From NCBI GenBank assembly GCA_028280615.1, contig JANQLK010000007.1:1-64000 (forward strand): a stretch of DNA of 64,000 bases, in the 5' to 3' direction. Shown piece after piece: positions 1,379 to 61,630 of the stretch; position 1 is the first letter of the stretch, and every line of letters begins with the position of its first letter. Made by a program: the position numbers and the translations under genes. The notes under the pieces are model-generated. The model had not been told where the DNA came from. It saw nothing but the letters and a program-made list of their open reading frames with translations, and did no database searches. The DNA comes from Woeseiaceae bacterium (lineage in GTDB: Bacteria; Pseudomonadota; Gammaproteobacteria; Steroidobacterales; Woeseiaceae).

Positions 1379-4220
<2,842 letters not shown>

Positions 4221-4224
4221 TGGA

Positions 4225-4866: not shown

Positions 4867-4871
4867 CTCTA

Positions 4872-6351: not shown

Positions 6352-6477
6352 CCGGGCAGGCGGACAGGGCGGTGACGTGCTTCGTTGCAATTGCGCCGGT
6401 GTCGTACCACACTGCGTACCGAATTGTGCGATAAGCAATTCTGCGATAAGCAACTGAAATCTGTCGGGAATAGCGTA

Positions 6478-6765: not shown

Positions 6766-6792
6766 CGGCTTTTCCCGGAGTCGGAGAACGTA

Positions 6793-7479: not shown

Positions 7480-7500
7480 CAGGGCCTGTCGGCGCGATTG

Positions 7501-8883: not shown

Positions 8884-8891
8884 GGCCCGCG

Positions 8892-9677
8892 TCAGGACGG
8901 CGATTCGGACTTGTTGCCCATTCCCTTGAGCGCGCTCATCATCGGCTCGACGAACTCCATCGGCATCGGGAACACGATCGTGTTGGTGCGCTCGGTCGAA
9001 ATGTCCTTGAGCGTCTGCAGGTAGCGAAGCTGCAGGCCCTGCTGCTCCGAGGCGAGGATATGGGCGGCCTCGGCGAGCATCTGTGCGGCCTGCTTTTCGC
9101 CCTCGGCGTTGATGACCTTGGCGCGCCGGGAACGCTCCGCCTCGGCCTGCTGCGCGATGGCACGGATCATGCTTTCATCGAGGTCGACGTGCTTGATCTC
9201 GACGTTTGCGACCTTGATGCCCCAGTTGTCGGTGCGCTGGTCGAGCAGGTTCTGGATGTCCTCGTTGAGCTTGTCGCGCTCCGAGAGCATGTCGTCGAGG
9301 TCGTGCTGGCCGAGGACCGAGCGCAGCGTCGTCTGCGACAGCTGGCTGGTCGCCTCGAACGGATTGGCCACGCGCACGACGGCTTTTTCCGGATCGACGA
9401 TGCGGAAGTAGATCACGGCGTTGACCTTGACCGAAACGTTGTCGCGCGAGATGACGTCCTGGGTCGGCACGTCCATGACCTGGACGCGAAGATCGACCTT
9501 GGTCATCGTTTGCAGTCCGGGAATCAGGATGATCAGGCCCGGGCCCTTGACCGTCTGGAAGCGGCCGAGAAAGAACACGACGCCGCGTTCGTATTCCTTG
9601 AGGATCTTGATCGTGTTGTACAGTATGATGACGATCAGCGCGATCACGATCCCAACAGTGACAAATGAAGTCGGCAT
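8892..9677 (-). CDS. Slipin, SPFH domain membrane protein
   Basis: A 261-residue stomatin-like protein. Residues 4-24 form the membrane anchor; the SPFH domain follows ([38 protein letters not shown]), then a helical, probably coiled-coil region rich in Ala/Glu/Arg ([20 protein letters not shown]). Slipins form oligomeric rings in membrane microdomains and are paired with NfeD proteases across bacteria. Here the NfeD gene lies 44 bp upstream on the same strand, so the two form the usual operon. Confidence 0.95.
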
Positions 9678-9721
9678 GGCTATACCTCGTTAGGTGAGTT
9701 CAATCTGAAGGGGGCCGCAGT

Positions 9722-11158
9722 CTAGCTCTGGGGCTGCATCTGGCCGATATCGGCGTCGCTGACCGGTTCGACGCTCAGCACGAGCCCGTCCATCGCGACT
9801 ACAACGACCGCCTGGTCCTTGCGAACGGGCTCGCTGCTCATGGCCCGCCAGCTTTCGCCTTCGAGCCACACCTTGCCTTCGCCGTCGAAGTCTTCGACGG
9901 CCGTGCCTACGCCGCCGACGATCGAGCCCGTGCCCGATACGGCGCCGCGTCTATGCAGTTTCAGCGTAAAGCTGACCAGCCAGATGATGAACAGCGCCAT
10001 GACGAGCCCGAGGCCGACGACGAACGTGATCGATACGCCGAATCCCGGCACGCCGCTGTCGAACATGATGATGGAGCCGAACACGAATGCGGCGATGCCG
10101 CCCAGCCCGAGCGCGCCGAAACTGGGCGCAAAGGCTTCGGCCACCATGAGCCCGATCCCGACGATAATCAGCGCGAGCCCCGCGTAGTTTACCGGGATGA
10201 CCTGCAGGGCGTAGGCCGCAAGCAGGAGGCAGATGACGCCGACTACGCCGGGCACGATGGCGCCCGGGTTCCAGCCCTCGTACATGAGCCCGTACAGACC
10301 GACCATGCCGAGCAGCAGCACGATTTCGGGATTCGCGATCACGGCCAGGAGCTTGATGCGCCAGTCGGGCTCGAACTCGTCGATCGTGGCGCCCGCCGTG
10401 GCCAGCGCCACCGTTTCCGACTGCACCCGTACCTCGTGGCCGTCGAGCTGCGCGAGCAGGTCGGCCCGGTCTTCCGCGATGAAGTCGATGACGTTGAGTT
10501 CGAGTGCTTCGCGTGCGGTCAGCGTCGCGGCCTCGGTAACCGCCTTCTCGGCCCAGTCGGCGTTGCGGCCGTAGCGCTCGGCAAGGCCGCGGATGTAGGC
10601 GACCGCGTCGTTGAGAACCTTGCGGTCCATCGCGGACCCCGGCGCCGGCGCGTCGACTGTCTCGCCGTCCTCCGCAGGCTCGTCTCCGGCTTCGGGCGCG
10701 AACGGGTTCGGCGGAGGGGTCGTGTCCTCGCCGGTCAGCGAAACGGGCGTTGCGGCGCCGATGTGCGTCGTCGGCGTCATCGCGGCGACGTGGCTCGCGA
10801 GCAGCAGGTAGGTGCCCGCGCTGTCCGCGCGTGCGCCGGCCGGCGTGACGTAGGTTGCGACCGGAACGGGTGAATTCAGGATGTTCTGCGCCATGTCGCG
10901 CATCGACGAGACGAGCCCACCCGGCGTGTCCATGTTGATAACGACGAGCTCCGCGCCAGTCTCTTCGGCATGCTCGAGGCCGCTCGCCAGGTAGTCGGAC
11001 GTCGCGACGCCGATGGCGCCGTCGATCGTCAGGACGACGACGTCCCCCTCGGCGTTCGCCGCGAGCGGCACGGCGCCCAGCAGCATTATTGCTAGCGTTA
11101 CCGCGGAAACGCGCCGCAGCGCGCCAAGAAACGAGGCTGTTCGGCTCGGCGCTGTCAT
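9722..11158 (-). CDS. NfeD family membrane serine protease, long form
   Basis: A 478-residue protein: signal/anchor at 12-36, a ClpP-class periplasmic protease domain (about 40-260, with INMDTPGGLVSSMRDMAQ and the PAGARADSAGTYLLLAS region carrying the likely nucleophile Ser), four to five transmembrane helices (about 265-400) and a C-terminal OB-fold NfeD domain ending the protein. An acidic, Pro-rich insert lies between the protease halves. Long NfeD proteins cleave stomatin partners in archaea; the downstream slipin is the expected partner. The gene diverges from the asparaginase gene with only 41 bp between them. Confidence 0.93.
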   Translation of the reverse strand: MTAPSRTASFLGALRRVSAVTLAIMLLGAVPLAANAEGDVVVLTIDGAIGVATSDYLASGLEHAEETGAELVVINMDTPGGLVSSMRDMAQNILNSPVPVATYVTPAGARADSAGTYLLLASHVAAMTPTTHIGAATPVSLTGEDTTPPPNPFAPEAGDEPAEDGETVDAPAPGSAMDRKVLNDAVAYIRGLAERYGRNADWAEKAVTEAATLTAREALELNVIDFIAEDRADLLAQLDGHEVRVQSETVALATAGATIDEFEPDWRIKLLAVIANPEIVLLLGMVGLYGLMYEGWNPGAIVPGVVGVICLLLAAYALQVIPVNYAGLALIIVGIGLMVAEAFAPSFGALGLGGIAAFVFGSIIMFDSGVPGFGVSITFVVGLGLVMALFIIWLVSFTLKLHRRGAVSGTGSIVGGVGTAVEDFDGEGKVWLEGESWRAMSSEPVRKDQAVVVVAMDGLVLSVEPVSDADIGQMQPQS

Positions 11159-11199
11159 CGCTTCATAATAGCAGGGTGAGGGATTACCATGGCCTGGCT

Positions 11200-11694
11200 A
11201 TGCGCATCCACTTCATTACGACCGGCGGCACGATCGACAAGATCTACTTCGACTCATTGAGTACATTTGAGGTCGGTGATCCACAAATCAAGACGATTCT
11301 GACCGACGGCCTCGTCGATTTCGACTACGACGTCACGGGTCTCATGGCCAAAGACAGCCTCGAGATCTCGGCCGACGACCGCGCGGCCATCCGCAGGCAC
11401 ATCGAAGCGAGCGACGACCGCCACTTCGTCGTCACTCACGGCACCGACACGATGGCCGAGACGGCCGAAGCGCTGACCGGCATCGACGGCAAGACGATCG
11501 TCCTGACCGGCGCACTGACGCCGGCGCGGTTCCGTACGACCGACGCCGTATTCAACGTCGGCATGGCGGTTGCGACGGTGCAGACGGGTAAGCCCGGCGT
11601 CTACATCGTCATGAGCGGCCAGGTGTTCGAGGCCGGGCGCGTGCGCAAGAACCGGGCGGAGAACCGCTTCGAATCGACAGACGAGGGGACGTGA
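11200..11694 (+). CDS. Asparaginase N-terminal domain protein
   Basis: A 164-residue protein equal to only the N-terminal domain of L-asparaginases. Both catalytic threonine motifs are present: TTGGTIDK near residue 7 (nucleophile and its neighbour) and THGTDTMAETAEAL near residue 78. The second domain of type I/II asparaginases, which helps close the active site of the dimer, is absent with no sign of a frameshift. Short stand-alone versions occur in several proteobacteria, but the substrate is not established. ATG at 11200 is chosen because upstream residues of the longer frame overlap the NfeD promoter region. The M29-like gene starts 5 bp after the stop. Confidence 0.85.
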   Translation: MRIHFITTGGTIDKIYFDSLSTFEVGDPQIKTILTDGLVDFDYDVTGLMAKDSLEISADDRAAIRRHIEASDDRHFVVTHGTDTMAETAEALTGIDGKTIVLTGALTPARFRTTDAVFNVGMAVATVQTGKPGVYIVMSGQVFEAGRVRKNRAENRFESTDEGT

Positions 11695-11699
11695 GAGAC

Positions 11700-12860
11700 A
11701 TGCGTAATCTGATTGCAAGTGTGTTGCTGGTTGCATCCGCCGCGGCGTCGTCGCAGTCCGACCCGCCGCAGTTCACGCTCGAATCCGAGGCGCTCGCCGC
11801 CGAGATCGTCGAGCGCCTCGACCTGCAGCCCGGCGAGCGGTTCCTCGCGGTTGCGCAGCCGGGCCTGTTCGACGAGCTGATCCGGCACCTTCGATACGCA
11901 GTGATGAAAGCCGGAGCGATCGATCTCGGCGTGCTCGACGTGTTGCAGGTACCCGTGCCCGATGCCTGGGACGCGGGTATTCTGAACCGTGCCGGTAAGG
12001 ACGCAAGGGCCGAGCTCAGGGACATGCTCCGCGACGTCGATGCGTCGATCATGCTGCCCGGCGCCAATCCGACACATCCCGCCTACGCTGCGCTTCAGGA
12101 CCTTATGAGGGAAGGACAGGGTCGAACGATCCACTTTCACTGGCTTCAGGGCGGCGGCAGCGTCGCGCTGCCGGGGCAGCCGCTGCCCGCCACGCACGTC
12201 ATCGAGGCGAGCTACCAGCGGGCGATTCTCGAGACCGACTACGAGGGACTGGCTCGAGCGCAGCGCCGATTCGAAGCCGCCATGCGCGGCGCCGAGATTC
12301 GCGTCACGGACACCGCGGGCACGGATATCAGCTTTCGCATCGGGGACCGGCCGGTCAACCGCCAGGACGGAAACGCCTCCGCCGAGAGAACCGATGCCGG
12401 ACTCGTGCTGATCGATCGAGAAATCGAGCTGCCCGCCGGCGTCGTTCGGGTCGCGCCGCTCGAAGAGACGGTCAACGGCAGGATTGCGTTCCCGCCGTCG
12501 CAGTGGGCCGGCAAACCCGTAACGGGTCTGAAGCTGACATTCGAGAAGGGCCAGGTCGTCGACGTCACGGCCGACACGGGGCAGGAGTCCGTGCTCGAGG
12601 AGATGGACGCCGCGGGCGATGCGGGCAGGGCGTTCCGCGAACTGGGGCTGGGATTCAATCCGCTGCTCGCCGTGCCGGACGAGCGTCCCTGGATACCGTA
12701 CTACGGCTATGGCGCCGGCGTCGTGCGCCTTTCGCTTGGCGACAATACCGAGCTTGGCGGCAACGTTTCGGGGGGTTACAGCCGCTGGAACTTTTTCACC
12801 GATATGACTGTGGCCGTCGACGGTGAGGTGTGGGTTCGGGACGGAAAGCTCGTTCGATAG
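11700..12860 (+). CDS. Exported M29-like aminopeptidase family protein
   Basis: A 386-residue protein with a signal peptide (MRNLIASVLLVASAAASSQS). The body resembles M29 aminopeptidases: the EIVERLDLQPGERFLAVAQP start, central LLMREGQG-like region, and FRELGLGFNP, which corresponds to the conserved fALGtNP block. Known M29 enzymes place metal ligands in a C-terminal G-x-x-H-x-A-x-G and H-x-D arrangement. Here the matching positions read GVVRLSLGDN and FFTDMTV, so His residues look replaced. It may be a catalytically altered relative. It shares a transcript with the asparaginase domain gene. Confidence 0.6.
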   Translation: MRNLIASVLLVASAAASSQSDPPQFTLESEALAAEIVERLDLQPGERFLAVAQPGLFDELIRHLRYAVMKAGAIDLGVLDVLQVPVPDAWDAGILNRAGKDARAELRDMLRDVDASIMLPGANPTHPAYAALQDLMREGQGRTIHFHWLQGGGSVALPGQPLPATHVIEASYQRAILETDYEGLARAQRRFEAAMRGAEIRVTDTAGTDISFRIGDRPVNRQDGNASAERTDAGLVLIDREIELPAGVVRVAPLEETVNGRIAFPPSQWAGKPVTGLKLTFEKGQVVDVTADTGQESVLEEMDAAGDAGRAFRELGLGFNPLLAVPDERPWIPYYGYGAGVVRLSLGDNTELGGNVSGGYSRWNFFTDMTVAVDGEVWVRDGKLVR

Positions 12861-13025
12861 GGCGGCGGTCGTAGTGGCCGTGACGCGCGCAAAACACGAC
12901 TTCGATGTCCTATCGATCAGGTTTGCGCAACGCACCGCTGGAAACATGATCGTAACGTGTCCGTGCAGGGATTCCCCTCGCGTATCCGCTCGGCTAACCT
13001 AGCAAGCAATTCTCGTTGGAGTACG

Positions 13026-32466: not shown

Positions 32467-32793
32467 CTATGGCCTACCGCCGGATCCGTTCTTCCTTCTA
32501 GTTGCCTTCTTTTTGGCTTTCTTCTTGGCCGCCTTCTTCTTCGGCTTCTTCTTGACCCTCTTCTTCTTAGCTGCCTTCTTTTTCGGCTTCTTCTTGACCC
32601 TCTTCTTCTTAGCTGCCTTCTTCTTCGGCTTCCTCTTGACCTTTCTTTTCTTAGCCACTTTCTTTTTTGCCTTCTTCTTTGTGACTTTTTTTCGTGTCTT
32701 CTTTCTCTTGACTGCCTTCTTCCGCACCACTTTTTTCTTTGCGGTCTTATTCTTCGCCGCCTTCCTACGCCTCGTCTTCTTTTTCGTTGCCAC
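32467..32793 (-). CDS. Lysine-rich histone H1-like protein
   Basis: A 108-residue, extremely basic protein made almost entirely of Lys, Arg, Ala, Val, Pro and Thr (ATKKKTRRRKAAKNKTAKKK). It contains three 14-residue units of the type KKRVKKKPKKKAAK encoded by 42-bp DNA repeats. Such proteins resemble the C-terminal tail of histone H1 and bacterial AlgP/HctB-type DNA-binding proteins, so nucleoid binding is likely. The GTG at 32793 has a GAGAGGAG site 6 bp upstream, which decides it over a 150-residue frame starting at 32919. Located beside the 2TM membrane gene. Confidence 0.85.
   Translation of the reverse strand: MATKKKTRRRKAAKNKTAKKKVVRKKAVKRKKTRKKVTKKKAKKKVAKKRKVKRKPKKKAAKKKRVKKKPKKKAAKKKRVKKKPKKKAAKKKAKKKATRRKNGSGGRP
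32531..32656. repeat. Three 42-bp tandem repeats
   Basis: Units at 32531-32572, 32573-32614 and 32615-32656 inside the lysine-rich gene. The first two differ at one position; the third is more diverged. Each encodes 14 residues, so copy number can change without a frameshift. Confidence 0.9.
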
Positions 32794-33083
32794 CGTCTTG
32801 CTCCTCTCTCTTGATCCATCCAAAAAAGTACGTACAAGTAGTGCTTTTCGCAAGTAGTACCGGTCAGATGTCGCACCTTGCCGCAAGCGCGGAGAGCGTG
32901 CCGGTCGTAACTCTGTCACTTACTTGAAGTGGGGCCAAAATGCGCTTCACCGCGCCTTACCGGCGGTTCCTTCTCAATGACAAACGAGGCCAATTGTGAG
33001 CTTGCATGCGGCGAAACCGCACTTCGGGTAGTCGGACAAGTTACAGTGTTACCACCGGCACCCGATCCTGTAAGTTGACGACC

Positions 33084-33788: not shown

Positions 33789-36700
33789 CTACGGACTAAT
33801 ACCGATTGCCGAGAGCTCGCTCAGGCAGGGCTCGATGCTGTTCCAGGTGACTCCCTCGAACACGAGCGTCCGTGCACCCATCACGGCCGGACTGACCGGC
33901 AGGTTGATGCCGCCGTTCGTCATCGACACAGTGCCGGAGTTGTAGATCTCGGTTCCTCCGCTGTCGAGCAACCGGTAGACCCCGGTCAGGAAGCTGAATC
34001 CGGGATCGAACTGGTTGTTGATCATCTGGATGCTCGTCACGACTACGTCGCTCGCAAAGTCGATCGTCAGCGATGGCGCCGGATCGTTGTTCGCCGTACA
34101 CCAGCTCGAGTTGTTGTTGAGATCGATGCCGTTCGCGGCGACGAACGAGCCGCTGAAGTCACTGCTCGAAGTTGCGAACGTACCCGGCAGTGAGGTCAGC
34201 GCGACTTCTCCGATCGGGATCGTGAAGCCGCCGCTGACGGTGACTCCCACGGTCGCCGCCGTCGTATCGATCAGGCCCGGTACGAGCGCCGATACCGTGG
34301 TCACACCGTTCGTGAGACCCGAGAAGCGTGCGCCTCCCGCCGCGAAGGTCGTCGGCGAGAACTGCGCGCCTTCCGGTATGCCGACGGTGATCGACGATCC
34401 GGACTCCGTCGGCGTGAATATCGCGCCGACCCGCGTATCGAGGTTGCTGATCGTGGCCGTGTAGCCGCCGCCGCCGACACGCGCCTCCTGAAATGTCTGC
34501 ACGTCCGTGTTGTTGGCATTCGGGATGCCGACGCGGACGAAGAAATCATCCGGGGTCAGACCGGTCTGGTTTGTGGCGAGACCCTCGAGACGGAATGCGG
34601 CCTGCACGACCGTCACGGCGCCGATCTCGTCGAGGAAGCCGGGGGCGGAGGCCGTGATCGTGACGGTGCTCTCATCACCCTGAACGCCCTGGATCGTGTA
34701 AATCACATCGGTTTGCCCGTTGGGGATGAAGGTTTCGATGAAGCCCGCGCCGGCGGTCGTTGCATCGGGCGACAGAAGCACGGCCGCCGTGTTGCTGCTT
34801 TCCAGCCGCAGCGTGACGCCACCGTGCTGGCTGGCGCCGAGACGCGCTATGAAGCCCGAGTCCTGCAGGCCGGCACCGACCGTGAGCGGCAGGCTGAACA
34901 GCGTGATGACGGGCGAGTTTACGGTGACTGGCTGAACCGCGGCATCCGTCGTTATGAAACCTGTCGCGGATGCGGTGACCGTCGTGTCGCCCGTCGTAAT
35001 CGGGCTGAAGGCCACGCCGCCGCCGGCAACCGAATTCGGCGAGAACTGTGCGCCTTCGGCAATCTGCACCGTGACGTTCTGGCCGGGTCCCGCGTTGGTG
35101 ATCAGTTCGCCGACCGTGCCGACCGCGTTGTTGACGGTTACGGTCAGCGGTCCGGAGCCCACGCGCACCTCCTGCAGCTGCTGAAGGGTGGTGTTGGTTG
35201 CGTTCGGCGTGCCGACTCGTATGAAGAACGGATCGTCGGGATCGAGCGTATCGATTGCGCTCAGCAGACCCTCGATGCGCAGCGCCGGTTGCACGACGTT
35301 CACTTCGCCGTTGCCGGAGATGAATCCCGTAGCCGACGCCGTGATCGTCGCCGTGCCCGTCGTGCCCTCGACACCCTGAATCGTATAGCTCACATCGGTG
35401 GACCCGTTCGGAAGGAACACGTCGATGAACCCGGCGCCGGGACTCGACGCGTCGGGCGCGATGAGGAGCGTCGACGGATCGGAACTCTCGACGCGCATCG
35501 TGACGCCGCCGTGCTGGCTCGCGTTCAGTCGCGCGATAAAGTTGGCATCCTGCAGACCCGCGCCGACCGTGAACGGCAGACTGAACAGCGTGATGCCCGG
35601 CGCCGTGACATTGACGTCCTGGGAGGCTGCGTCGGTTTGAACGAATCCGGGAATCGAGCCCGCGACCGTCGTCTGCCCGACGCCGCCCGGGCTGAAGGCA
35701 ACGCCGCCCGCCGCGAGCGTGGTCGGGGAGAATTGCTGGCCCTCGGGAATCGTGACGGTTCTGGACTGGCCGGCACCGGCCTGCGTGACGAGTTCGCCGG
35801 CCGCCGCGTTGCTGTTGGTCAGCGTGACGGTCAGGCCGCCACCGCCGACCCGAGCCTCCTGAAGCTGCTGCAGAGTGGTGTTGCCCGCGTTCGGTGTGCC
35901 GATCCGGGCGAAGAACGAATCGTCGGGATCGAGTGTGTCGATGGACGTGAGGACACCTTCGAGTCGCAGTGCCGGCTGCACGACCGTGACGTCGCCCGTC
36001 TGCGACGTGAAGCCCGCGGCGGTAGCCGTAATCGTCGCCGTGCCCAAGGCGCCCTCGACGCCCTGGATCGTGTAGCTCGCATCGGTCTGACCGTTATTCA
36101 GCGAGTACTCGACGAAACCCGTACCGACCGTGCTCGCATCGGGCGCAAGCAGCAGAACGGATGGGTCGCTGCTCTCGAGTCGTAATATCACGCCGCCGTG
36201 CTGGCTTGCGTCGAGACGTGCCGTGAAGCCAGCGTCCTGAAGACCCGCACCCACCGTGAACGGCAGGCTGAACAGCGTAATGCCCGGTCCCGTCACGTTG
36301 ACGTTCTGAACCGCGGCGTCGGTCTGGACAAAGCCCGGAATCGATGCCGATACGATCGTTGCGCCCTCGCCGCGAGGTACGAAGGCGACGCCGCCGGCGG
36401 CAACGGAGGTCTGCGAGAACTGCGCACCCTCAGCGATGGCGACCGTCACGCTCGTCGCGGTTGCGGCCGTCGTTTCGAGCTCGCCGACGCTGCCGTTGCT
36501 GCTCGTGACCGTAACGGTCAGGCCGCCACCACCGACCCGCGCCTCCTGCAAGTTCGAGAGGGTCGTGTTGCTGCCGTTCGGCAGGCCGACGCGCATGAAA
36601 AACGCGTCCGCGGGGTCGAAGGTATCGATCGATGCGGCGAGCGACTCGATGCGGACGGCCGGCTGCGCTACGGTGACGGACCCGGTTTCGGACGCGAATC

Positions 36701-39700
36701 CGGGCGCGCTGGCCGTGAGGTTGGCCACGCCGGCTGCGCCCTCGACGCCCTGGATCGTGTAGCTCACGTCCGTCTGGCCGTTCAGGAGCGGCACGTCGAT
36801 AAAGGGCGTGCCCGGCGTCGACGCGTCGGGCGCAACGAGCAACCGGGTCGGGTCGTCGCTTGCGATGCGAACCGTGATGCCGCCATGCTGGTCTTCGCCG
36901 AGCCGCGCGAGGAAGCCGGCATCCTGCAGGCCCGCTCCGACCGTAAAGGGCAGGCTGAACAACGCTATGCCGGGCGACGGATTGACCGTTACGGTCACCG
37001 TGTCGGGCGTGATGCTCGTATCGCTGGCCGTGATCGTCGTCGTGCACGGCAATGGCGTTACTCCGCCGTACTCGAGCAGCGGCGTCGTGACGTTCGCAAA
37101 GCCCGTCTCGATGACCTGCGATGGGACGACGCTGACGCAGCCCGGATCGTCGGCCGCGAGCAGTACCGTGATCGGCTCGGGCGCGGCGACCGGATTCCCC
37201 TCGCTGGTCAGCACGACGGTCAGCGAGATCGACGGGAACGACTCGTTGAAGTTGACGTCGGTTTCGACGATGTTGAACTCGGCCGTCGTGTTGACGACGG
37301 TCGAGTCGCTCGAGAAATTCGGGCTGGACGCCGTGACATTCGCCGGACCGACGCCCGCGCCCAGCACGGTGGCGTTCGCCGAGAACGCTCCCTCGGGGAT
37401 CGTCACGGTCGGCGTTTGTACGACCACGTTGCCGGTGTTGTCGGAAACCAGCGTCACGTCGACACCGCCGGCCGGCGCCGGGTTCGGCTGGATCGAGACC
37501 GGGACGGACGCCGTCTGGCCGAGCGGCACGTTGACGTCCGACGGCAGCGTGATCAGGCTCGCGGTAACCTGCACGCCGATCGTCGCGGTCTGGAAGCCGG
37601 GCGCCGTGGCCGAGATCGTCGCCGATCCTTCGGCAACGCCCGTGACCTGGAAGCTGCCCATGGTCTGTCCGGCCGGAATCACGACCGTGCCCGGATTGAG
37701 GCTTGCGACGCCCGCGTCGTCGACGTCGAGGGTCACCGTGACGCCGCCGGCTCCGGCCGCCTGCGACAGCGTAACCGTGCCGTCCACGGTCCGGCCCGCG
37801 CCGACGAGCTGCGACGTCAGCGATAGCGACATCGTGCGTAACCCGACGTTGACCGTCGTCGTATCCGACGTAAAGCCTGCGGCGCTCGCCGTGATCGTGT
37901 CGACACCCTCGGTGTCGCCCGCATCGACGCTTACGCTTGCCGAGGTCAGGCCTTCGAGGATCGTCACGGTAGCCGGAACGCTGACGAGCCCGGTATCGAC
38001 GGCGAGGTCCACGACCTGCCCGCCGGCCGGTGCGGGGTTGCTGATGATGACGCTGAGCGGCGCCGATTCCTGTGTCAGCAGGTTGATCGTCGCTGGATTG
38101 AGCGTAATCGTGCCGGCTACATCGTCATTGATGATCGTCCCGGTCGCCTGCGCTGCGCCGATGACCGCATTGGTCGGCGCGCTGAGATTGACGAAGAACA
38201 ATTCGTTCGGCTCGATGTCCGTGTCGCCGTTGACGGTGACGGACACGACCTGAGGCGTCGTGTCATTCGCCGGGAACGTCACGGTGCCGGTCGCGGCATC
38301 GTAATCGTTGTCTGCCACGGTGGCCGTGTTGTCGAGCGTCGCAAAGTCGACCGTGACGACACGGTCGATGGCCGCGGACAGGGTCACCGTGAAGTCGAGC
38401 GTCGTCGTGCCGGCGTCGCCCTCGGTAACCGAGTTGCTGCCGATACTCAAGCTCGGAGCCGCTGCCACCGTGATCACGACCGTGTCCGTATCGCTCTCAA
38501 CACCATCGTCGACCGTCAGGCTGATCGTGTAATCGCCGGGCACGTTGAAGGTTGCGGTCGGGTTGACAATGGAGTTGTCGGAGAAGTTGACCGCGCCGCC
38601 GGACGGTCCCGTCTGCAGCTGCCACAGATAGGTCAGCGTGTCATTGTCGGGGTCGCTCGAGGAGGAGCCGTCGAGCTGCACAGTGTCGATATCGAGCACG
38701 CTCTGGTTCGGTCCGGCATCCGCGGTCGGCGCGCTGTTGACATCATTGACCGTGATCGTAATCGTCTCGAAATCGTCGAGCACGGGCGTGCCGTCGTCGG
38801 TCACGCGAATCGTCACGTCGAAGGTTCCGGGGCCGTCGTCGGCGGTGGGCGTCCAGGTGAACGCACCGCTGCTCGGGTCAATGGCCGCGCCCGGCGGCGC
38901 ACCGGCATCGAGCGAGAAGGTCAGCGCGTTGGCGGGCAGATCCGGGTCGGACGCCGTCGCCGTGAAGGCGAGTTCGGTTTCTTCATCGACGCTCCGGTCG
39001 CCGATCGGGTCGAGCACGGGCGCTTCGTTGATCTCGTCGATCGTGATCGTGATCGTTTCGAAGTCGTCGAGCGCGGGCGCGCCGTCGTCGGTGACGCGCA
39101 CGGTGACCGTGATCGTGTCGGGGCCGTCGGCCTCGTCCGGCGTCCAGCTGAATACGCCGGTCGTCGGGTCGATGCTGGCCGTTAAGGGTGCACCCGCGTC
39201 GAGCGAGAACGTCAGCGTGTTGGCGGGCTCGTCGACATCCGACGCGGTTGCCGTGAAGCTGAGCTCGCTCCCCTCGTCAACGCTCCGGTCGCCGATCGGG
39301 TCGAGTACGGGCGCTTCGTTGACTTCATTGACCGTGATCGTGATCGTCTCGAAATCGTCGAGCGTGGGCGTGCCGTCGTCGGTCACGCGCACGGTGACCG
39401 TGACCGTATCGGGTCCGTCGGCCTCGTCGGGCGTCCAGCCGAATACGCCGGTCGTCGGGTCGATGCTGGCCGTTACGGGTGCGCCGGCGTCGAGCGAGAA
39501 CGTCAGCGTATCGCCGGCATCCGGGTCCGTCGCGGTCGCCGTGAACGAAAGCTCACTGCCTTCGTCGACGGTCCGGTCGCCGATCGGATCGAGCTCGGGC
39601 GGCTGGTTGACGGAGTTGACCGTAATCGTGATGGTTTCGAAATCGTCGAGCTCGGGCGTGCCGTCATCGGTGACCCGCACCGTGACCGTAAAGTCGTTGC

Positions 39701-42128
39701 CGCCGTCGTCCAGATCGGTCGTCCAGCTGAACGCACCCGTGACCGGATCGATGCTCGCACCCGCGGGTGCGCCCGGGTCGAGCGAGAAGGTCAGCGTATT
39801 CGCGGGCTCGTCGCTATCCGTGGCCGTGGCCGTGAAGGTCAGCGTCTGGCCCTCGTCGACGGTCTGGTTGCCGATCGGGTCGAGCTCGGGCGCACTATTG
39901 ACCTCGTTCACGGTCACGGTGATGGTTTCGGCATCGTTGAGCGGCGGCGTGCCGTCGTCGGTCACGCGGACCGTGATGTCGAAGGTCCCGGGGCCGTCGG
40001 CCTCGTCCGGCGTCCAGCTGAAAAAGCCCGTGACCGGGTCGATGCCTGCCGTCGCCGGCGCCCCGGAGTCGAGGCTGAAGGTCAGCGTGTCGCCGGCATC
40101 GTCATCGCTCGCGGTTGCCGTAAAGGTCAGCGTGGCGCCCTCGTCAACGGTCCGGTCTCCGATCGGGTCCAGGACCGGCGCGTCGTTGCTGCCGCCGACG
40201 TCGATCGTGACCGTTGCAGAATCCTGACCGCCGTTTCCGTCGTCGTTCGTATACGTGAACGTATCGACGCCGGCGAAGTTCGCATTCGGCGTGTAGGTCA
40301 CATCGGCGCCATTGTTCGCGACCGCGCCGTTGGTCGGCTGCGTGACGCTCAGGACCGTCAGCGTGTCGCCGTCGATGTCGCTGTCGTTCGACAACACGTC
40401 GACGATGACCGGCGTGTCTTCCTGGGTCGATGCCGTGTCGTCATTGGCCACGGGCGGATCGTTGACCGGAATCACCGTGATCGACACGGTCGCTGAGTCC
40501 TCACCGCCGTTTCCGTCGTCGATCGTGTAGGTGAAGCTGTCGCTGCCGTTGAAATCCGGATCCGGCGTGTAGCGCAGCAGATTGCCGACCTGCTGCACCG
40601 TACCGTCATTCGCGCTGCCGAAGTTCGAGATCGTCAGCGTATCGTCGTCGGCATCGGTGTCGTTGGCGAGCACGTCGATGTCGGCGAAGTCGTCTTCGTT
40701 GAGGCTCGCGAGGTCATCATTGGCCACGGGATCGGTGTTCGGCTGCACGTTGACCGTGATCGTGGCCGTGTCCGGATCGGAGTCGACGTTGCCGTCGTTG
40801 ACGATGAGCTGGACGACGTACAGGCCCTCGACGTCCGGGACGAACGTCGGATTGATCGAACCCGGATCGCTCAGGGTCGCCGTGCTCGGATTGACGGAGA
40901 ACGACCAGTTGAACGTCAGCGTGTCGCCGTCGACGTCGAATGAACCGGAGCCGTCGAGCTGCACGGTGTCGTCCACCTCGACGGTCTGATCGACGCCGGC
41001 GTCGGCGACCGGCTGCGTGTTCGACGTGCTGATCGTTGCCGTATCGGGCAGGCTGTCGACGCTGCCGTCATTGACGATGAGCTGGGCCAGGTAGGTGCCC
41101 GCAACGTCGGCTACGAAGGTCGGGTTGACCGCGCTGGTATCGGACAAAACGGCCGCACTGCCTGCCGGCGGCGTCAGCGACCAGGAGAACGTCAGGGGGT
41201 CGCCGTCCGCGTCGCTGGAGCCGGAGCCGTCGAGCATGACCGTGCTGTTGACCGCCACGGTCTGATCGCTGCCGGCGTCGGCAACCGGCTGGGTGTTGTC
41301 CGTCGTGATCGTGACGAAGTCGGGCAGGCTGCCGGCCTGGCCGTCGTCAACGACCAGTTCGACGACATAGGTACCCGCGAGGTCCGCGACGAACGTCGGC
41401 ATCGGGTCCGTGGGATCGGACAGGATGGCACCGCTGCCGGCCGGCAGGCTGGCAATGGTCCAGAAGAACGTCAGCGTGTCGCCATCGGCATCGCTCGAGC
41501 CCGTGCCGTCCAGCTGGACGGTGGCACCGAGCGCAACGGCCTGGTCGGGACCCGCGTCGGCCACGGGCGGCGTGTTGCCCGGCGCCGTGACGATCACGAC
41601 GTCGTCAGGGGGACTGTCGACCGTGCCGTCGTTGACGACCAGCGCGATCACGAAATCGCCGGGAACGTCGGCCACGAACGTGGGCATCACCGCGGTCGGG
41701 TCCGAGAGCGCCGCCGCGCTGCCGCCCGGCGCCACGATGAATTCCCAGCTGAAGGTCAGCGAGTCGCCGTCGGCATCGCTGGAGCCGGATCCGTTCAGGG
41801 TTACGGTCTGGCCGACGTCGACGGTCTGGTCACTGCCCGCATCGGCCACGGGCGGTGTGTTCTGCGGCGGCTCGGCACAGCCGGGCAGCGTGCACATCTG
41901 CAAGCAGGCACGACCGTCCAGCACGGTGATGAAACCGTCGCCGTCCGCGTCGCGGGGATCGTCGGGTCCCGTCGCCGGCTGATTGCGGGCGGCGAAGATC
42001 AGCCCGATGTCTATCCGGTCGACGTCACCGTCCATATCGACGTCGCAAACCTGGCCGGCTGCATGGAGCGGCGACCAAATCGCCAGGGTGAGTACGGCGG
42101 CAACGAAGCCCCGAATGGAAAAACGCAT
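33789..42128 (-). CDS. Giant secreted multidomain Ig-like protein with N-terminal dockerin-like module
   Basis: A 2779-residue exported protein. After a signal peptide (about 1-23), residues 28-75 hold two Ca loops of dockerin type (DVDMDGDVDRID and DADGDGFITVLD). Then come four PKD-like domains (91-462), two tandem-95/cadherin-like domains (463-646), five dystroglycan-type cadherin domains (647-1132), a fifth PKD domain (1133-1222), a Calx-beta domain (1225-1337), four Ig-like domains (1338-1717), four 229-residue repeats (1720-2633) and a discoidin-like C-terminal domain (2634-2779, Cys2677/Cys2768). No LPXTG, PEP-CTERM or RTX export signal is visible. The plan fits a Ca-stiffened adhesin or glycan binder. 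The cohesin-like PEP-CTERM gene lies 194 bp upstream. Confidence 0.88.
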   Translation of the reverse strand: MRFSIRGFVAAVLTLAIWSPLHAAGQVCDVDMDGDVDRIDIGLIFAARNQPATGPDDPRDADGDGFITVLDGRACLQMCTLPGCAEPPQNTPPVADAGSDQTVDVGQTVTLNGSGSSDADGDSLTFSWEFIVAPGGSAAALSDPTAVMPTFVADVPGDFVIALVVNDGTVDSPPDDVVIVTAPGNTPPVADAGPDQAVALGATVQLDGTGSSDADGDTLTFFWTIASLPAGSGAILSDPTDPMPTFVADLAGTYVVELVVDDGQAGSLPDFVTITTDNTQPVADAGSDQTVAVNSTVMLDGSGSSDADGDPLTFSWSLTPPAGSAAVLSDTSAVNPTFVADVAGTYLAQLIVNDGSVDSLPDTATISTSNTQPVADAGVDQTVEVDDTVQLDGSGSFDVDGDTLTFNWSFSVNPSTATLSDPGSINPTFVPDVEGLYVVQLIVNDGNVDSDPDTATITVNVQPNTDPVANDDLASLNEDDFADIDVLANDTDADDDTLTISNFGSANDGTVQQVGNLLRYTPDPDFNGSDSFTYTIDDGNGGEDSATVSITVIPVNDPPVANDDTASTQEDTPVIVDVLSNDSDIDGDTLTVLSVTQPTNGAVANNGADVTYTPNANFAGVDTFTYTNDDGNGGQDSATVTIDVGGSNDAPVLDPIGDRTVDEGATLTFTATASDDDAGDTLTFSLDSGAPATAGIDPVTGFFSWTPDEADGPGTFDITVRVTDDGTPPLNDAETITVTVNEVNSAPELDPIGNQTVDEGQTLTFTATATDSDEPANTLTFSLDPGAPAGASIDPVTGAFSWTTDLDDGGNDFTVTVRVTDDGTPELDDFETITITVNSVNQPPELDPIGDRTVDEGSELSFTATATDPDAGDTLTFSLDAGAPVTASIDPTTGVFGWTPDEADGPDTVTVTVRVTDDGTPTLDDFETITITVNEVNEAPVLDPIGDRSVDEGSELSFTATASDVDEPANTLTFSLDAGAPLTASIDPTTGVFSWTPDEADGPDTITVTVRVTDDGAPALDDFETITITIDEINEAPVLDPIGDRSVDEETELAFTATASDPDLPANALTFSLDAGAPPGAAIDPSSGAFTWTPTADDGPGTFDVTIRVTDDGTPVLDDFETITITVNDVNSAPTADAGPNQSVLDIDTVQLDGSSSSDPDNDTLTYLWQLQTGPSGGAVNFSDNSIVNPTATFNVPGDYTISLTVDDGVESDTDTVVITVAAAPSLSIGSNSVTEGDAGTTTLDFTVTLSAAIDRVVTVDFATLDNTATVADNDYDAATGTVTFPANDTTPQVVSVTVNGDTDIEPNELFFVNLSAPTNAVIGAAQATGTIINDDVAGTITLNPATINLLTQESAPLSVIISNPAPAGGQVVDLAVDTGLVSVPATVTILEGLTSASVSVDAGDTEGVDTITASAAGFTSDTTTVNVGLRTMSLSLTSQLVGAGRTVDGTVTLSQAAGAGGVTVTLDVDDAGVASLNPGTVVIPAGQTMGSFQVTGVAEGSATISATAPGFQTATIGVQVTASLITLPSDVNVPLGQTASVPVSIQPNPAPAGGVDVTLVSDNTGNVVVQTPTVTIPEGAFSANATVLGAGVGPANVTASSPNFSSDSTVVNTTAEFNIVETDVNFNESFPSISLTVVLTSEGNPVAAPEPITVLLAADDPGCVSVVPSQVIETGFANVTTPLLEYGGVTPLPCTTTITASDTSITPDTVTVTVNPSPGIALFSLPFTVGAGLQDAGFLARLGEDQHGGITVRIASDDPTRLLVAPDASTPGTPFIDVPLLNGQTDVSYTIQGVEGAAGVANLTASAPGFASETGSVTVAQPAVRIESLAASIDTFDPADAFFMRVGLPNGSNTTLSNLQEARVGGGGLTVTVTSSNGSVGELETTAATATSVTVAIAEGAQFSQTSVAAGGVAFVPRGEGATIVSASIPGFVQTDAAVQNVNVTGPGITLFSLPFTVGAGLQDAGFTARLDASQHGGVILRLESSDPSVLLLAPDASTVGTGFVEYSLNNGQTDASYTIQGVEGALGTATITATAAGFTSQTGDVTVVQPALRLEGVLTSIDTLDPDDSFFARIGTPNAGNTTLQQLQEARVGGGGLTVTLTNSNAAAGELVTQAGAGQSRTVTIPEGQQFSPTTLAAGGVAFSPGGVGQTTVAGSIPGFVQTDAASQDVNVTAPGITLFSLPFTVGAGLQDANFIARLNASQHGGVTMRVESSDPSTLLIAPDASSPGAGFIDVFLPNGSTDVSYTIQGVEGTTGTATITASATGFISGNGEVNVVQPALRIEGLLSAIDTLDPDDPFFIRVGTPNATNTTLQQLQEVRVGSGPLTVTVNNAVGTVGELITNAGPGQNVTVQIAEGAQFSPNSVAGGGVAFSPITTGDTTVTASATGFITTDAAVQPVTVNSPVITLFSLPLTVGAGLQDSGFIARLGASQHGGVTLRLESSNTAAVLLSPDATTAGAGFIETFIPNGQTDVIYTIQGVQGDESTVTITASAPGFLDEIGAVTVVQAAFRLEGLATNQTGLTPDDFFVRVGIPNANNTDVQTFQEARVGGGGYTATISNLDTRVGAIFTPTESGSSITVGIPEGAQFSPTTFAAGGARFSGLTNGVTTVSALVPGLIDTTAATVGVTVSGGFTIPIGEVALTSLPGTFATSSSDFSGSFVAANGIDLNNNSSWCTANNDPAPSLTIDFASDVVVTSIQMINNQFDPGFSFLTGVYRLLDSGGTEIYNSGTVSMTNGGINLPVSPAVMGARTLVFEGVTWNSIEPCLSELSAIGISP
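34230..36971 (-). repeat. Four tandem 687-bp (229-residue) repeats
   Basis: Units begin at residues 1720, 1949, 2178 and 2407 of the giant protein, an exact 229-residue period. Each opens with I(T/A)LFSLP(F/L)TVGAGLQD and contains QHGG, TIQGV(E/Q)G and a LQEARVGGGG-like motif. Each unit appears to be two Ig-like modules fused. DNA units: 36971-36285, 36284-35598, 35597-34911 and 34910 to about 34230. Confidence 0.9.
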
Positions 42129-42322
42129 CTGCCTCTCCCGGTGACCCCGGGCCAGAGGCGCGCGACTTACGGTCTCACGGACGAGCTAGGGCGGCAGAGG
42201 TGCTGACCCCCAACGTTTGGTGAACTTGTGAACTACGACGCGTGGCTCCAACCCGAACATCCTATTGATTCTTTTTAACGTCTTCGTGCAGTGGCCCCGG
42301 CGAATTCGGGACCGGCTTCGCC

Positions 42323-42922
42323 TCAAGGGCGTGCGGGCTTTCTCATCGCTCCGAGACCCGCGAATCCGAGGATCAGTAACAACAGCGTGGACGGCTCCGC
42401 CACGACTTGTGTGATCGTGATGCTGCCGGCCCCTGGAGCAGCCTCGAGTGCAGGGCCCGTCTCGCTGCCCAGGAAGCTGAAAGGCGCCGGCTGGCCAAGA
42501 ATATTGCCCATGAGCGTCAGAGCGCTCGTGCCTATTCCCAGCGTCTCGAATGACAGCGTGAACGCCCTGAACGGCGTACCGTCCTGAAAGCCATCGAGAG
42601 ATCCGAGGAACGAAAACTCCGTCACGTCGGCAAACCCCGTACCAAAGAAAACGTCCACCACCGCGTTACCTGCGCCGCCCAGCGAGGTGCCGAAAGCAAC
42701 GGCTGATAGCGACAGCAGTGACGAGTCCCAGCTAACTTTCATGTCGTAGGTGGCGATGTTACTAGCGCTCGGGCCGATGACGACGTCCACGGTGACCTGT
42801 CGACCGAGCAGGACAGACTGGTCAGCCGGGACGAATTCGATCGGAATCGGAGCGGCGAGCGCCGGCGCCTGCGTTAGCAGGCAGCCCAACAGCAACGATG
42901 AAACGATAGGTACGATTCGCAT
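42323..42922 (-). CDS. PEP-CTERM protein with cohesin-like domain
   Basis: A 199-residue exported protein. Signal peptide at 1-23 (LLLGCLLTQAPALA), then a domain at about 27-165 with the cohesin pattern: QSVLLGRQVTVDVVIG, IATYDMKVSWDSSLLSLSAV and FRAFTLSFETLGIGTSAL. The C-terminus AEPSTLLLLILGFAGLGAMR followed by KPARP is a PEP-CTERM sorting tail (motif, hydrophobic helix, basic end) that exosortase would process. Cohesins bind dockerins; the next gene on the same strand encodes a dockerin-like module. No exosortase gene is in the window. The cohesin call rests on pattern recognition, not a search. Confidence 0.75.
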   Translation of the reverse strand: MRIVPIVSSLLLGCLLTQAPALAAPIPIEFVPADQSVLLGRQVTVDVVIGPSASNIATYDMKVSWDSSLLSLSAVAFGTSLGGAGNAVVDVFFGTGFADVTEFSFLGSLDGFQDGTPFRAFTLSFETLGIGTSALTLMGNILGQPAPFSFLGSETGPALEAAPGAGSITITQVVAEPSTLLLLILGFAGLGAMRKPARP

Positions 42923-43216
42923 GGTTACGCCCCTGTCTAGATTGACTCCAAAGCGCGTGGCCGATCATTCGATAAAAACTGTTTGCAAATATCATGCCGA
43001 TATGAGTTGTTCGCCGAGATTCAAGCACTTGGCCCGGGGCTGGACACAGTCCAGATTGGAAACTGTAAAATCGGTCGACGGTTGAACCGAGACCGTACGC
43101 GCTCGCGGCTGGGCGCCGTGCCCGGGCGAGGGCCCGCCTGCAATGAGCGATGATAGAGTTCGGGTGTCGCGTCGCGTTGACGTCCGCACTGCGAGTAAAC
43201 CCAAGCGGAGCACCGA

Positions 43217-43639
43217 ATGAAGGCAAGCGCTATTCCATTCATCGTCATCGTCGTCGCCTATTTTGCTCTCGAGCTGTTCGTAGCCAGCAGCACCAGGCAT
43301 CGAATGGAGCCCGAGTACATCTTCGCCAATCACGTGAAGGCGTCGCGCGCCGTTGATCGCTGCGGGCCGCTGAAGCCCGTGGACGCCGACAAGTTCGACG
43401 CCAACTATCGCTACTCGCGGCGACGGGCCGTCGCGGCCCGGACCGAGAGCGAACCCAATGAATCGGAGGCATCGATCGAGGCCATCGTGCACGCCCAGGA
43501 GGAGGCCGGGCGCCGCGAAGTCGACGCGCTGGTCGACGAACTCGGCTGCGACGACACCGAGCTCTTCATGCACCGGAAACGCTACGAGATTCTGGCCCGG
43601 CGGAACCTGCCTACAGAGCGGACAAACCTCAGCAGATGA
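43217..43639 (+). CDS. Hypothetical membrane-anchored protein
   Basis: A 140-residue protein starting MKASAIPFIVIVVAYFALEL with one N-terminal transmembrane helix (about 5-24), followed by a soluble, highly charged, mostly helical domain (YRYSRRRAVAARTESEPNES and EEAGRREVDALVDELGCDD). Three Cys are present at dispersed positions. No family was recognised. It diverges from the PEP-CTERM cohesin-like gene across 294 bp that hold no other gene, and converges with the next exported protein. Codon use is like the core genome. Confidence 0.5.
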   Translation: MKASAIPFIVIVVAYFALELFVASSTRHRMEPEYIFANHVKASRAVDRCGPLKPVDADKFDANYRYSRRRAVAARTESEPNESEASIEAIVHAQEEAGRREVDALVDELGCDDTELFMHRKRYEILARRNLPTERTNLSR

Positions 43640-44363: not shown

Positions 44364-46037
44364 CTAGGCGGCCGGCAGGCCGATCCGCGCCCGCAAGGCT
44401 TCGAAGTCTTTGTTGTCGCGGAGCTCCGCGAAGCAGGGCAGAAGGCACAGGAGGTCGACTTGCATGAAGTCGTCCCGGTCGACGGCGGCGTCGAGTATCC
44501 GGATCGCGGCGCCCGTGTTCCCCGCCAGGCTGTAGAGCCGCGCGATCAGCCGCGGCGATACATACTGCTCGAGCGCGCGTTTCTCGAGCAGACGGCTCGC
44601 CTCGCCGAGGCGGCTGGCGACGTCGCCGCCGTCCGTGCCGGCAAGCGCCTCTGAAACCGGGGCGTCGTGTTGCCACACGGTCCGCTCGAGTTCCAGCGCG
44701 TCGGGCCGGCCGCATACCCAGGCCAGGTCGGCACTGAGCTCCAGCGCCGGCGGGAACGACGGGTCCAGTTCGAGTACCTGTGCGAGGTCCGACTCGGCTC
44801 GCTCCCAGCGACCGGTGCCGCAGTGGCAGAGCGCGCTGCCGTAGCGCACGGCCGGATTGAGCGGGTCGAGGCGGCAGGCCTCATCGACCTGGCCGCGCGC
44901 GCCGTCGTCGTGCATAGCCGCGAGAAACAGCGCGGTGAGGAGCCGGGCGTGCGCGAGGTTCGGGTTGGCATCGATGGCCGCCTCGAACCGGTCCCGCGCC
45001 TCACGCCAGTCGCGCTCGATATAAAACTGATAGGCGCCCGCCAGCATGTTAGCATCGGCATCGTCCGGATCGATCTCGAGCGCCGCCGTAACGGCCTCGG
45101 ATACCCGGCTGCGGACTTCGGTAGCCGACATCACGCCCCAGTATCCCAACGCGCCCCAGACGTCGGCGACGCCCGCGTGTGCGGCGCAGAAACGCGGCGC
45201 GATATCGATCGCGGTCTGGAAATGCTCCAGCGCCTGCTGAAAATGCTCGGGACTCAGCTTGTACCAGTGAAAGCGGCCCATGAGATAGCGGCGGACCGCT
45301 TCCGCGTCGATGTCGACGGCCGCCGCGCCCGGCGCGGCGATACGTCCGCCGTCACTGACCCGTCTCGCGATCTCGCCGGCGACCGACTCGGCTTCGCGGA
45401 ACAATCGCGCCTGCGCGAATCGACGGGAATCGGCCCAGACGTGCGTGTCAGTGGTGGCATCGATCAGCTGCACCGTAACGGCGATAGGGTCGGCCGCGTC
45501 GACGACAGACCCTTCGACGATGGTGTCGGCCCCGAGCCGGGTCGCGATGTCCGGCAGCGACAACGTGCTGCCCCGGAACACCATGACCGACTGCCGGGAG
45601 ATGACCCGCAACCCGGCGCAGGTGCTCAACGAGGCGATCAACGAGTCGGTCATGCCGTCGGCAACGTAGTTGTTGTCGTCGTCGCCGGTCAGGTTCGAGA
45701 GTGGCAGCACGGCTACGACGGGCGTGGCGGCCGAGGAGGCCGCGACCAGGCGGTATCCCCGCTTCGGAATGGTTTCGAGAATGTGCGGATGACGCGGGTC
45801 GTCGTCGAGCGCCTTGCGCAGCGCGGAGACCGCCGTCTGCAGGGCGCTGTCCGTGACGTAGGAATGTGGCCAGACGTTGCTGATGATCTGGTCGCGACCG
45901 AGCACCCTGCCCGGGTTGGCCGCGAAGTAGACGAGCAGGTCCATCACCCTGGGTTCGAGGCGGCGCTCGACGCTGCCGCGTACGACCGTGTTTCGGTCAG
46001 GCTTGACAAGCCATTTGCCGACCGTGAATTCCCGCAA
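44364..46037 (-). CDS. Winged-helix/TPR regulator, CadC family without clear membrane helix
   Basis: A 557-residue protein. Residues 1-100 form an OmpR-type winged helix (RRLEPRVMDLLVYFAANPGR, ALQTAVSALRKALDDD, LETIPKRGYRLV). A FlgO/TolB-like alpha/beta domain follows (about 105-225: VAVLPLSNLTGDDDNNYVAD, ADTIVEGSVV), then TPR units to about 500. Unlike the 778-residue paralogue at 26615-28951, no distinct transmembrane helix joins the DNA-binding and sensor parts, so it may be cytoplasmic. TTG start, uncertain. Target genes are not evident; the exported protein gene downstream is a candidate. Confidence 0.82.
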   Translation of the reverse strand: MREFTVGKWLVKPDRNTVVRGSVERRLEPRVMDLLVYFAANPGRVLGRDQIISNVWPHSYVTDSALQTAVSALRKALDDDPRHPHILETIPKRGYRLVAASSAATPVVAVLPLSNLTGDDDNNYVADGMTDSLIASLSTCAGLRVISRQSVMVFRGSTLSLPDIATRLGADTIVEGSVVDAADPIAVTVQLIDATTDTHVWADSRRFAQARLFREAESVAGEIARRVSDGGRIAAPGAAAVDIDAEAVRRYLMGRFHWYKLSPEHFQQALEHFQTAIDIAPRFCAAHAGVADVWGALGYWGVMSATEVRSRVSEAVTAALEIDPDDADANMLAGAYQFYIERDWREARDRFEAAIDANPNLAHARLLTALFLAAMHDDGARGQVDEACRLDPLNPAVRYGSALCHCGTGRWERAESDLAQVLELDPSFPPALELSADLAWVCGRPDALELERTVWQHDAPVSEALAGTDGGDVASRLGEASRLLEKRALEQYVSPRLIARLYSLAGNTGAAIRILDAAVDRDDFMQVDLLCLLPCFAELRDNKDFEALRARIGLPAA

Positions 46038-60744: not shown

Positions 60745-61332
60745 TCAGGCTGTCTTTCTGCGCCGCGTCAATCCAAGTGCTGCAAGACCGATACCGAAGA
60801 GTGCGAGGGCGGCGGGCTCTGGTACGCTTGTAACTGTAACGCCGATATTGTCGATATTGACGCTCGAAATATTGAAGTTAGAAATTTGTATACCCACCGA
60901 ATCGAACGCCGCGCTTGAAGCGCTGATAACGTTATCCCAAAATCCGAAAGCACCGGCAAATGTACCTGACTGCGAGAATATGCTAGCGCCACCGAGGAAG
61001 CCCGTGATTGCATAGTCATAAGAACCATCGGTATTGGAACCGGTACTGAATCCGATCGAATCGAAGGTAAATAGCCCACCAGATACAGCTTCGATTCCGA
61101 TGAATGCGCCTTCTCCATTAAAACTGAAAATAGATGGCCTTGCATCTCCCACTAAGAATCCCTGCCGCCAGTTGGGACCTGCGGTCACTAAGAACCCCTC
61201 TTCTGTCGTACCGGTGAACGTGGCGCCATTGGGGCCAGGTAGGCTATCAAAAGTAATCAGAGCTGCATTCGCCGCCATCGGTGACATCAGCACAGCGAGA
61301 AAGGCGAGATATGTACTCTTTGTTCTATTCAT
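60745..61332 (-). CDS. PEP-CTERM sorting domain protein
   Basis: A 195-residue exported protein. Signal peptide (YLAFLAVLMSPMAANAALI), a beta-rich, Gly/Phe/Ser-rich mature domain (ITFDSLPGPNGATFTGTTEE, GAFIGIEAVSGGLFTFDSIG) and the tail VPEPAALALFGIGLAALGLT followed by RRRKTA, a textbook PEP-CTERM signal. Such proteins are processed by an exosortase and associated with exopolysaccharide; function of this one is unknown. ATG 61332 has a GGAGG site. It is the second PEP-CTERM protein of the window, with its own terminator. Confidence 0.9.
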   Translation of the reverse strand: MNRTKSTYLAFLAVLMSPMAANAALITFDSLPGPNGATFTGTTEEGFLVTAGPNWRQGFLVGDARPSIFSFNGEGAFIGIEAVSGGLFTFDSIGFSTGSNTDGSYDYAITGFLGGASIFSQSGTFAGAFGFWDNVISASSAAFDSVGIQISNFNISSVNIDNIGVTVTSVPEPAALALFGIGLAALGLTRRRKTA

Positions 61333-61630
61333 CAGCGGCCTCCAGAATGAACAGCTATTGGTGTAGTAAGCAATTACGCAATTGCGGTACGCAATTGCCG
61401 TGCCGGAATCCCGAGAATCGCAAAAAAACAAAGAGATACGTTTTCATTCACCTATAATCTCTGCTCCGTTTGTACGCAACGTGTAAAGGAAGTCGACAAA
61501 AAGCCGCTACGTGAGCCTCCTTTCTGGGTTGTTAGTTCGATAGATCGCCGTAGATGTACGATGCTGAACAGCGATGCGAGCACGCGCAAGCGTGCTTCGA
61601 TCCTATCGCGGCGATGTTCGTAGCTTTACA

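Follow-up and report, generated by a model that had tools for sequence, protein, structure and literature searches.

How is a giant exported protein kept on the cell that secretes it when it has no visible anchor of its own? The question is raised by two neighbouring genes in a stretch of 64,000 nucleotides from a Woeseiaceae bacterium (assembly GCA_028280615.1, contig JANQLK010000007.1, positions 1 to 64,000), which we call the window. One gene (42323..42922, minus strand) encodes a 199-residue protein with a signal peptide, a cohesin domain and a PEP-CTERM tail, named here the receptor. The next gene on the same strand (33789..42128) encodes a client, a 2779-residue exported repeat protein with an N-terminal dockerin, named here the giant. 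Both open reading frames lie where a first, sequence-only reading of this DNA had placed them; that reading took the small protein for a surface receptor that captures a giant adhesin. The answer we favour, with a probability of about 78%, is that a cohesin receptor, sorted by exosortase, retains exported proteins that bear a dockerin, as an anchoring module that is not cellulosomal.

Dockerin and cohesin occur together across genomes. Their profiles were run separately, with identical settings, in samples of the order, the class and the phylum; the survey listings name the genomes with matches, and those without are mostly unlisted. Among the 147 genomes of the order (E up to 1e-3), 11 had the dockerin, 11 the cohesin and seven both (Fisher exact test, p = 3.9e-7). 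The class sample (369 genomes of 271 genera, E up to 1e-5) gave 16, 17 and 14 genomes respectively, with p = 1e-20, or 2e-19 when the window's genome is left out. For the phylum (194 genomes), the six genomes with the dockerin are the identical six with the cohesin (p = 1.5e-11). All six belong to the window's class, the share of this sample outside the class not being shown, and four of them, among which is the window's genome, recur in the class sample. Dockerin hits had a cohesin nearby in eight of 15 cases in the order, 16 of 19 in the class and eight of nine in the phylum, the last count including one hit (G647:C4) paired only through a weak cohesin match. As comparative evidence for a partnership of the two domains, this is strong. 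With the window's cohesin as query, three of 60 genomes matched: its own, one of the same genus (G012) and one of another family (G059). Since only G012 among the 36 other genomes of the genus has the cohesin, the locus is patchy. A contig scan of genomes with the same query gave no match, nor was there a plasmid match for the two proteins tried, a cohesin and a dockerin from Massilia timonae.

Conserved adjacency, which the sequence-only reading had proposed to look for in relatives, is what we found. The two genes are neighbours in all 23 genomes with both domains (seven from the order, 13 more from the class, two more from the phylum, and G012), and are not apart in most. Two genes placed at random in a genome of 3.5 Mb would come within 7.2 kb of each other in about 0.4% of genomes. 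Chance adjacency was rejected on the class-sample co-occurrence statistics together with the positions of the neighbours. Our table of pairs has 45 dockerin rows: 32 paired, eight of the family without a cohesin in the stretch examined (L016, L051, L056, L057, L067, L068, L071 and L072), four of generic type (L069, L070, L129 and L130), and L135, which duplicates L132 and was left out of all counts. The 32 pairs involve 31 distinct cohesins, 31 pairs are on the same strand, and the median gap between open frames is 26 bp (at most 778 bp, except for 1463 bp in the second pair of the window's genome). G012 has the gene order of the window, its cohesin being followed by a 2623-residue frame whose dockerin lies near the N-terminus; the G059 cohesin gene overlaps the end of the gene for a 785-residue protein with a C-terminal dockerin. 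Scanning named genomes with the dockerin alone (591 stretches listed) gave at least nine loci, and six of the nine listed have a cohesin alongside: two gammaproteobacterial metagenome-assembled genomes (MAGs), a Kiloniellaceae MAG, a Competibacteraceae MAG, Massilia timonae CCUG 45783 and a Methylibium MAG. The three listed without one are L051 (Rubrivivax), L056, and L057 (Desulfuromonadales).

The orientation of the pairs follows the position of the dockerin. With an N-terminal dockerin, five of six cases have the cohesin gene upstream; with a C-terminal one, 21 of 24 cases on the same strand have it downstream. The dockerin end of the client gene tends to lie towards the cohesin gene (Fisher p = 0.002, a guide only, as related loci are not independent), a hint that the dockerin and the cohesin gene may move together as a cassette. 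Paired domains also show correlated distances (Spearman 0.43 over 30 pairs, permutation p = 2e-4), which common descent is enough to produce; this test left out L017 and L053, both truncated at contig ends, and counted L119 twice with its one cohesin. This last locus (2810-12990, plus strand, genome G413) consists of a 619-residue client frame with a dockerin, a receptor, and a 2458-residue frame with a dockerin near its N-terminus. Genome G647 carries two separate dockerin-cohesin pairs on different contigs (L132 and L133).

The receptor's predicted model has the cohesin fold, a nine-strand jelly roll in structure comparison with solved cohesins. These align to about residues 21-173, and the fold matches include the ScaE and ScaG cohesins (2zf9 and 4wkz). 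The domain itself covers about residues 24-172 (42407..42853; this and the other features of the two proteins are on the minus strand). It follows a signal peptide of about residues 1-23 (42854..42922), a helix at 6-15 in the model; the signal peptides of both proteins were called by eye. The tail (residues 175-199, 42326..42400) has an AEPS motif, a hydrophobic helix and a basic end. It is a PEP-CTERM tail, as the sequence-only reading had it: TIGR02595 gives 17.0 bits against a cut-off of 16, and PF07589 gives 17.0 bits on the protein (below its cut-off of 20.7) and 20.9 bits in the genome scan (above it). A profile of the cohesin relatives matches the cohesin chains of the solved complexes 5lxv and 2y3n.

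In the giant, a signal peptide (about residues 1-24, 42057..42128) precedes the dockerin domain (residues 25-87, 41868..42056), which has four cysteines. The Ca loops that had been claimed at residues 29-40 (DVDMDGDVDRID, 42009..42044) and 60-71 (DADGDGFITVLD, 41916..41951) stand at exactly these positions in the translation. Both fit the dockerin type I pattern, D at 1, 3, 5 and 12 and G at 6, and the second has a sub-threshold match to EF-hand_6 (18.1 bits). The loop pattern is kept in most of 21 relatives, L061 having an insertion in the first loop. The domain scores 125.7 bits with our profile A3, by construction, and 110.3 bits with A5. The profile built from the 21 relatives finds two dockerins of known structure, 2y3n_B and 5lxv_B (both at about 1e-4), among many calmodulins. 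Single-sequence searches of the Protein Data Bank with both window proteins gave no useful match.

The proteins that carry the dockerin vary widely in domain content according to family scans. Those beside a cohesin include IgGFc-binding-like proteins (L049 and L050), an S8 protease (L015), a VWA7-like protein (L054), proteins with propeller-like repeats (L058 and L059), thrombospondin-3 proteins (L019 and L060) and repeat giants. Dockerin proteins with no cohesin in the stretch examined include an ExeM/NucH nuclease (L016), a third IgGFc-binding-like protein (L071), glucose/sorbosone dehydrogenase-like proteins (L067 and L068) and a lamin-tail-domain protein (L072). The dockerin is at the very C-terminus in most clients and near the N-terminus in six (the giant of the window, L017, L062, L115, one of the two at L119, and L121). 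The recurrence of the pair beside very different secreted proteins points to a general mode of holding proteins. The capture of the giant as first proposed is supported, and it widens beyond giant adhesins, since in most partners the dockerin forms the C-terminus of an enzyme or another secreted protein. One further client, at L115 (1-5553, minus strand, genome G236), is an Rhs-repeat protein with PASTA domains and an N-terminal dockerin beside a cohesin gene; it is cut by the contig end, which leaves its true C-terminus unseen.

The rest of the window's genome (4.57 Mb in 58 contigs) repeats these elements. Its three family dockerins, with 40 to 46 of 63 residues in common, sit on the repeat giant, on a 1452-residue subtilisin-like (S8) protease and at the end of an ExeM/NucH-type nuclease. 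The two cohesin matches are in separate 199-residue proteins, and the second, also with a PEP-CTERM tail, lies near the dockerin of the protease. The NCBI model ExeM-GG, whose name we read as ExeM with a GlyGly-CTERM tail, matches the dockerin-bearing nuclease far below its cut-off; the dockerin may occupy the place that the sorting tail has in the GlyGly-CTERM form. We rejected a cellulosome, as this genome yielded neither a multi-cohesin scaffoldin nor a plant-wall client. There is one exosortase match (C29:357630-358373), an XrtA (243.4 bits over 208) with the C-x-G, N-x-x-R and H-x-x-x-G motifs, and there are 13 PEP-CTERM sites, one of them in a 32-residue open frame. The window itself holds a second PEP-CTERM protein (60745-61431, minus strand; TIGR02595 25.5 bits over 16, PF07589 32.5 bits), which is weakly like the flocculation protein PepA (38.9 bits, cut-off 80).

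Sorting tails are found on the receptor side of the pairs. Without exception, the 31 distinct paired cohesins have a hydrophobic C-terminal stretch with a basic end, and 29 have a PEP-like motif according to a permissive script that also counts VPLPA, VPIPA and VPAPA tails; L118 and L125 have variants. No sorting-type tail (hydrophobic with a basic end) was seen in the dockerin clients of the pair table, which bears out the earlier remark that the giant has no visible anchor. The most hydrophobic of the clients' C-terminal stretches are part of the dockerin's own helix (L015 and L053), and in the client of L062 there is a short stretch that lacks a basic end. Exosortase (PF09721) is enriched in genomes with the cohesin: ten of 11 versus 59 of 147 overall in the order (p = 5e-4), and 13 of 17 versus 127 of 369 overall in the class (p = 4e-4). 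A profile artefact driven by PEP-CTERM was rejected, because the cohesin profiles exclude the tail and A6 matches 17 of the 369 genomes, against the 127 with exosortase.

These dockerins also share a pattern of cysteines. One cysteine just before the first loop and one in the helix after the second are both present in 27 of 40 dockerins and both absent in 13 (L053, whose start is cut and first loop lost, is counted here), and neither occurs alone. The two further cysteines are present in 38 and 39 of the 40. Such co-variation is most naturally read as a disulfide stapling both ends of the dockerin module. Some cellulosomal dockerins have a similar clasp.

We propose the following mechanism. 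The receptor would leave the cytoplasm by its own signal peptide, and XrtA, the only exosortase detected in the genome, would process its PEP-CTERM tail, placing the cohesin domain at the outer surface or in a surface matrix. The giant, exported by its own signal peptide, would then dock into the cohesin with its N-terminal dockerin, through the two cysteine-stapled Ca loops and presumably in a Ca-dependent manner, and stay on the cell, where it may act as an adhesin. The same kind of receptor probably serves the other dockerin proteins of the genome, the S8 protease and the ExeM/NucH nuclease, and several clients may share one receptor. There are even odds, in our judgement, that this extends to a general plug-in display in outer-membrane bacteria, where the receptor alone is sorted by exosortase, the cysteine-stapled dockerin replaces the sorting tails of clients, and dockerin and cohesin travel as a cassette while the bodies of the clients are swapped.

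Several results weigh against the anchoring reading. The Pfam checks proposed with the sequence-only reading gave divided answers. On the receptor, PF00963 reaches 20.0 bits for a cut-off of 24.1; among ten paired relatives L049 (25.0) and L050 (31.2) pass, L053 is at the cut-off (24.1) and seven fail, the profile of the relatives and the fold being those of a cohesin. The first 90 residues of the giant score 15.0 bits with PF00404 (E = 0.028, cut-off 22.9), a family that is not among the matches of the whole protein (E up to 1). Four of the 19 related dockerin proteins scanned pass this cut-off (L015, L019, L051 and L055), and the profile of the 21 relatives indicates a dockerin less sharply. 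Some dockerins have no detected cohesin (G043, G056, L051, L056 and L057). The dockerin-only genomes are G043, G056, G076 and G158 in the order, the last two with the generic type, and G248 and G310 (28 bits each) in the class; the cohesin-only ones are G051, G088, G097 and G147 in the order and G194, G298 and G384 in the class. The second pair of the window's genome lies 5.7 kb apart on opposite strands, with 1463 bp between frames. PF09721 was not found in five genomes with the cohesin (G039, G194, G298, G368 and G456); these cases are unexplained and may reflect a diverged exosortase, missing sequence or a tail that serves as a plain membrane anchor. Finally, the cysteine state of the dockerin agrees with the nearest cohesin in 21 of 30 cases, which is not significant (p = 0.12).

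The main rival lies within the same mechanism. The proteins may bind, with the exosortase pathway freeing the cohesin into exopolysaccharide, so that clients would be held in the biofilm matrix instead of on the envelope. We regard this as a real, if tentative, possibility. PEP-CTERM sorting is linked with exopolysaccharide genes, and in the available sections of the founding description the final site of the processed proteins is not settled (PMC1569441); repeat giants and a nuclease would also suit matrix tethering. Two other explanations are less likely. It is improbable that the cohesin protein assists export or folding, binding the dockerin during passage through the envelope without anchoring it: one receptor beside one client, the one-to-one order of most loci, would fit, but such a role has no need of the receptor's sorting tail, and dockerins outnumber the cohesins found in G000 (three and two) and in G081, G039 and G413 (two and one each). 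Least probable of all, the domains could resemble cohesin and dockerin without binding each other, in merely co-regulated secreted proteins, as the sub-threshold Pfam scores in the window, the commonness of such Ca loops and the matches of the dockerin profile to calmodulins would allow, but near-exclusive co-occurrence, adjacency with unrelated clients, the cohesin fold of the receptor and profile matches to both partners, cohesin chain and dockerin chain, in two solved complexes (5lxv and 2y3n) all argue against it.

Beyond the dockerin, the giant has PKD, Ig-like, cadherin-like, He_PIG and Calx-beta repeats at about residues 90-1336 (38121..41861; PF18911, PF22352, PF17963, PF05345 and PF03160 above cut-off). 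A discoidin-like (F5/8 type C) piece follows at residues 2652-2706 (34011..34175), where PF00754 (cut-off 28.2) gives 28.6 bits on the C-terminal fragment, above the cut-off, and 24.7 on the whole protein, below it. Between them (about 34224-36971) four copies of the motif ..LFSLPFTVGAGLQD lie at residues 1720, 1949, 2178 and 2407, spaced by exactly 229 residues, in a stretch with no Pfam family above cut-off. The 194 bp that separate receptor and giant (42129..42322) contain no terminator-like or promoter-like site, nor was any found in the rest of 42050-43300 by a consensus scan. Upstream of the pair is a gene for a CadC-type winged-helix regulator with TPR repeats (44364-46037, minus strand), with a 184-residue open frame without family match in between. 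On the other side of the giant, a lysine-rich repeat frame of the KKKAAKKK type (32467-32919, minus strand) is histone-like in appearance.

Cohesins and dockerins outside cellulosomes were reportedly described by Peer et al. in 2009. Among the closest known systems are the single-cohesin cell-anchored scaffoldins (ScaE and the autonomous cohesin ScaG of Ruminococcus flavefaciens; 'nonSLH-anchoring' scaffoldins), which likewise join one cohesin to a cell-attachment signal and hold dockerin proteins at the surface. They occur in cellulosome bacteria with signals such as LPxTG, ScaE using a sortase, whereas the signal here is an exosortase PEP-CTERM tail in hosts with an outer membrane, and none of the clients found is cellulosomal. 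Scaffoldins that pair a cohesin with LPxTG or a comparable signal form an established anchoring class, according to the accessible part of one source (PMC11557425). Cohesin-dockerin proteins outside cellulosomes are also found in anaerobic methanotrophic (ANME) archaea, their sulfate-reducing partners and Archaeoglobus. In ANME and their partners they are thought to serve adhesion, as far as the available sections of the sources go (PMC9012536, PMC5244752 and PMC10553843); within the same limits, the ANME cohesins are in multi-cohesin proteins and have no stated link to a PEP-CTERM tail or a two-gene module. The likeness to PEP-CTERM/exosortase systems lies in the receptor's tail and the XrtA of the genome. 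In those systems and in GlyGly-CTERM/rhombosortase each cargo has its own tail, whereas here one sorted receptor would hold cargo without tails.

In the open literature, most subscription papers falling outside this scope, no paper was found that describes cohesin-dockerin docking joined to exosortase/PEP-CTERM sorting in bacteria. The only match joining dockerin or cohesin with exosortase was a 2017 paper which, in its accessible part, calls the function of these domains outside cellulosomes not known (PMC5244752), and the accessible part of the founding PEP-CTERM paper mentions neither cohesin nor dockerin (PMC1569441). Database names already include 'cohesin domain-containing protein' and 'Cohesin domain/PEP-CTERM motif', so the receptor's domain content is annotated; the pairing with the dockerin is apparently undescribed. 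For cohesins and dockerins that are not cellulosomal it provides a concrete and conserved assignment of partners, and it joins two systems, cohesin-dockerin docking and exosortase sorting. If the anchoring reading is true, it would explain how secreted enzymes and giants without tails stay on outer-membrane cells, and the dockerin-cohesin pair could serve as a display tag.

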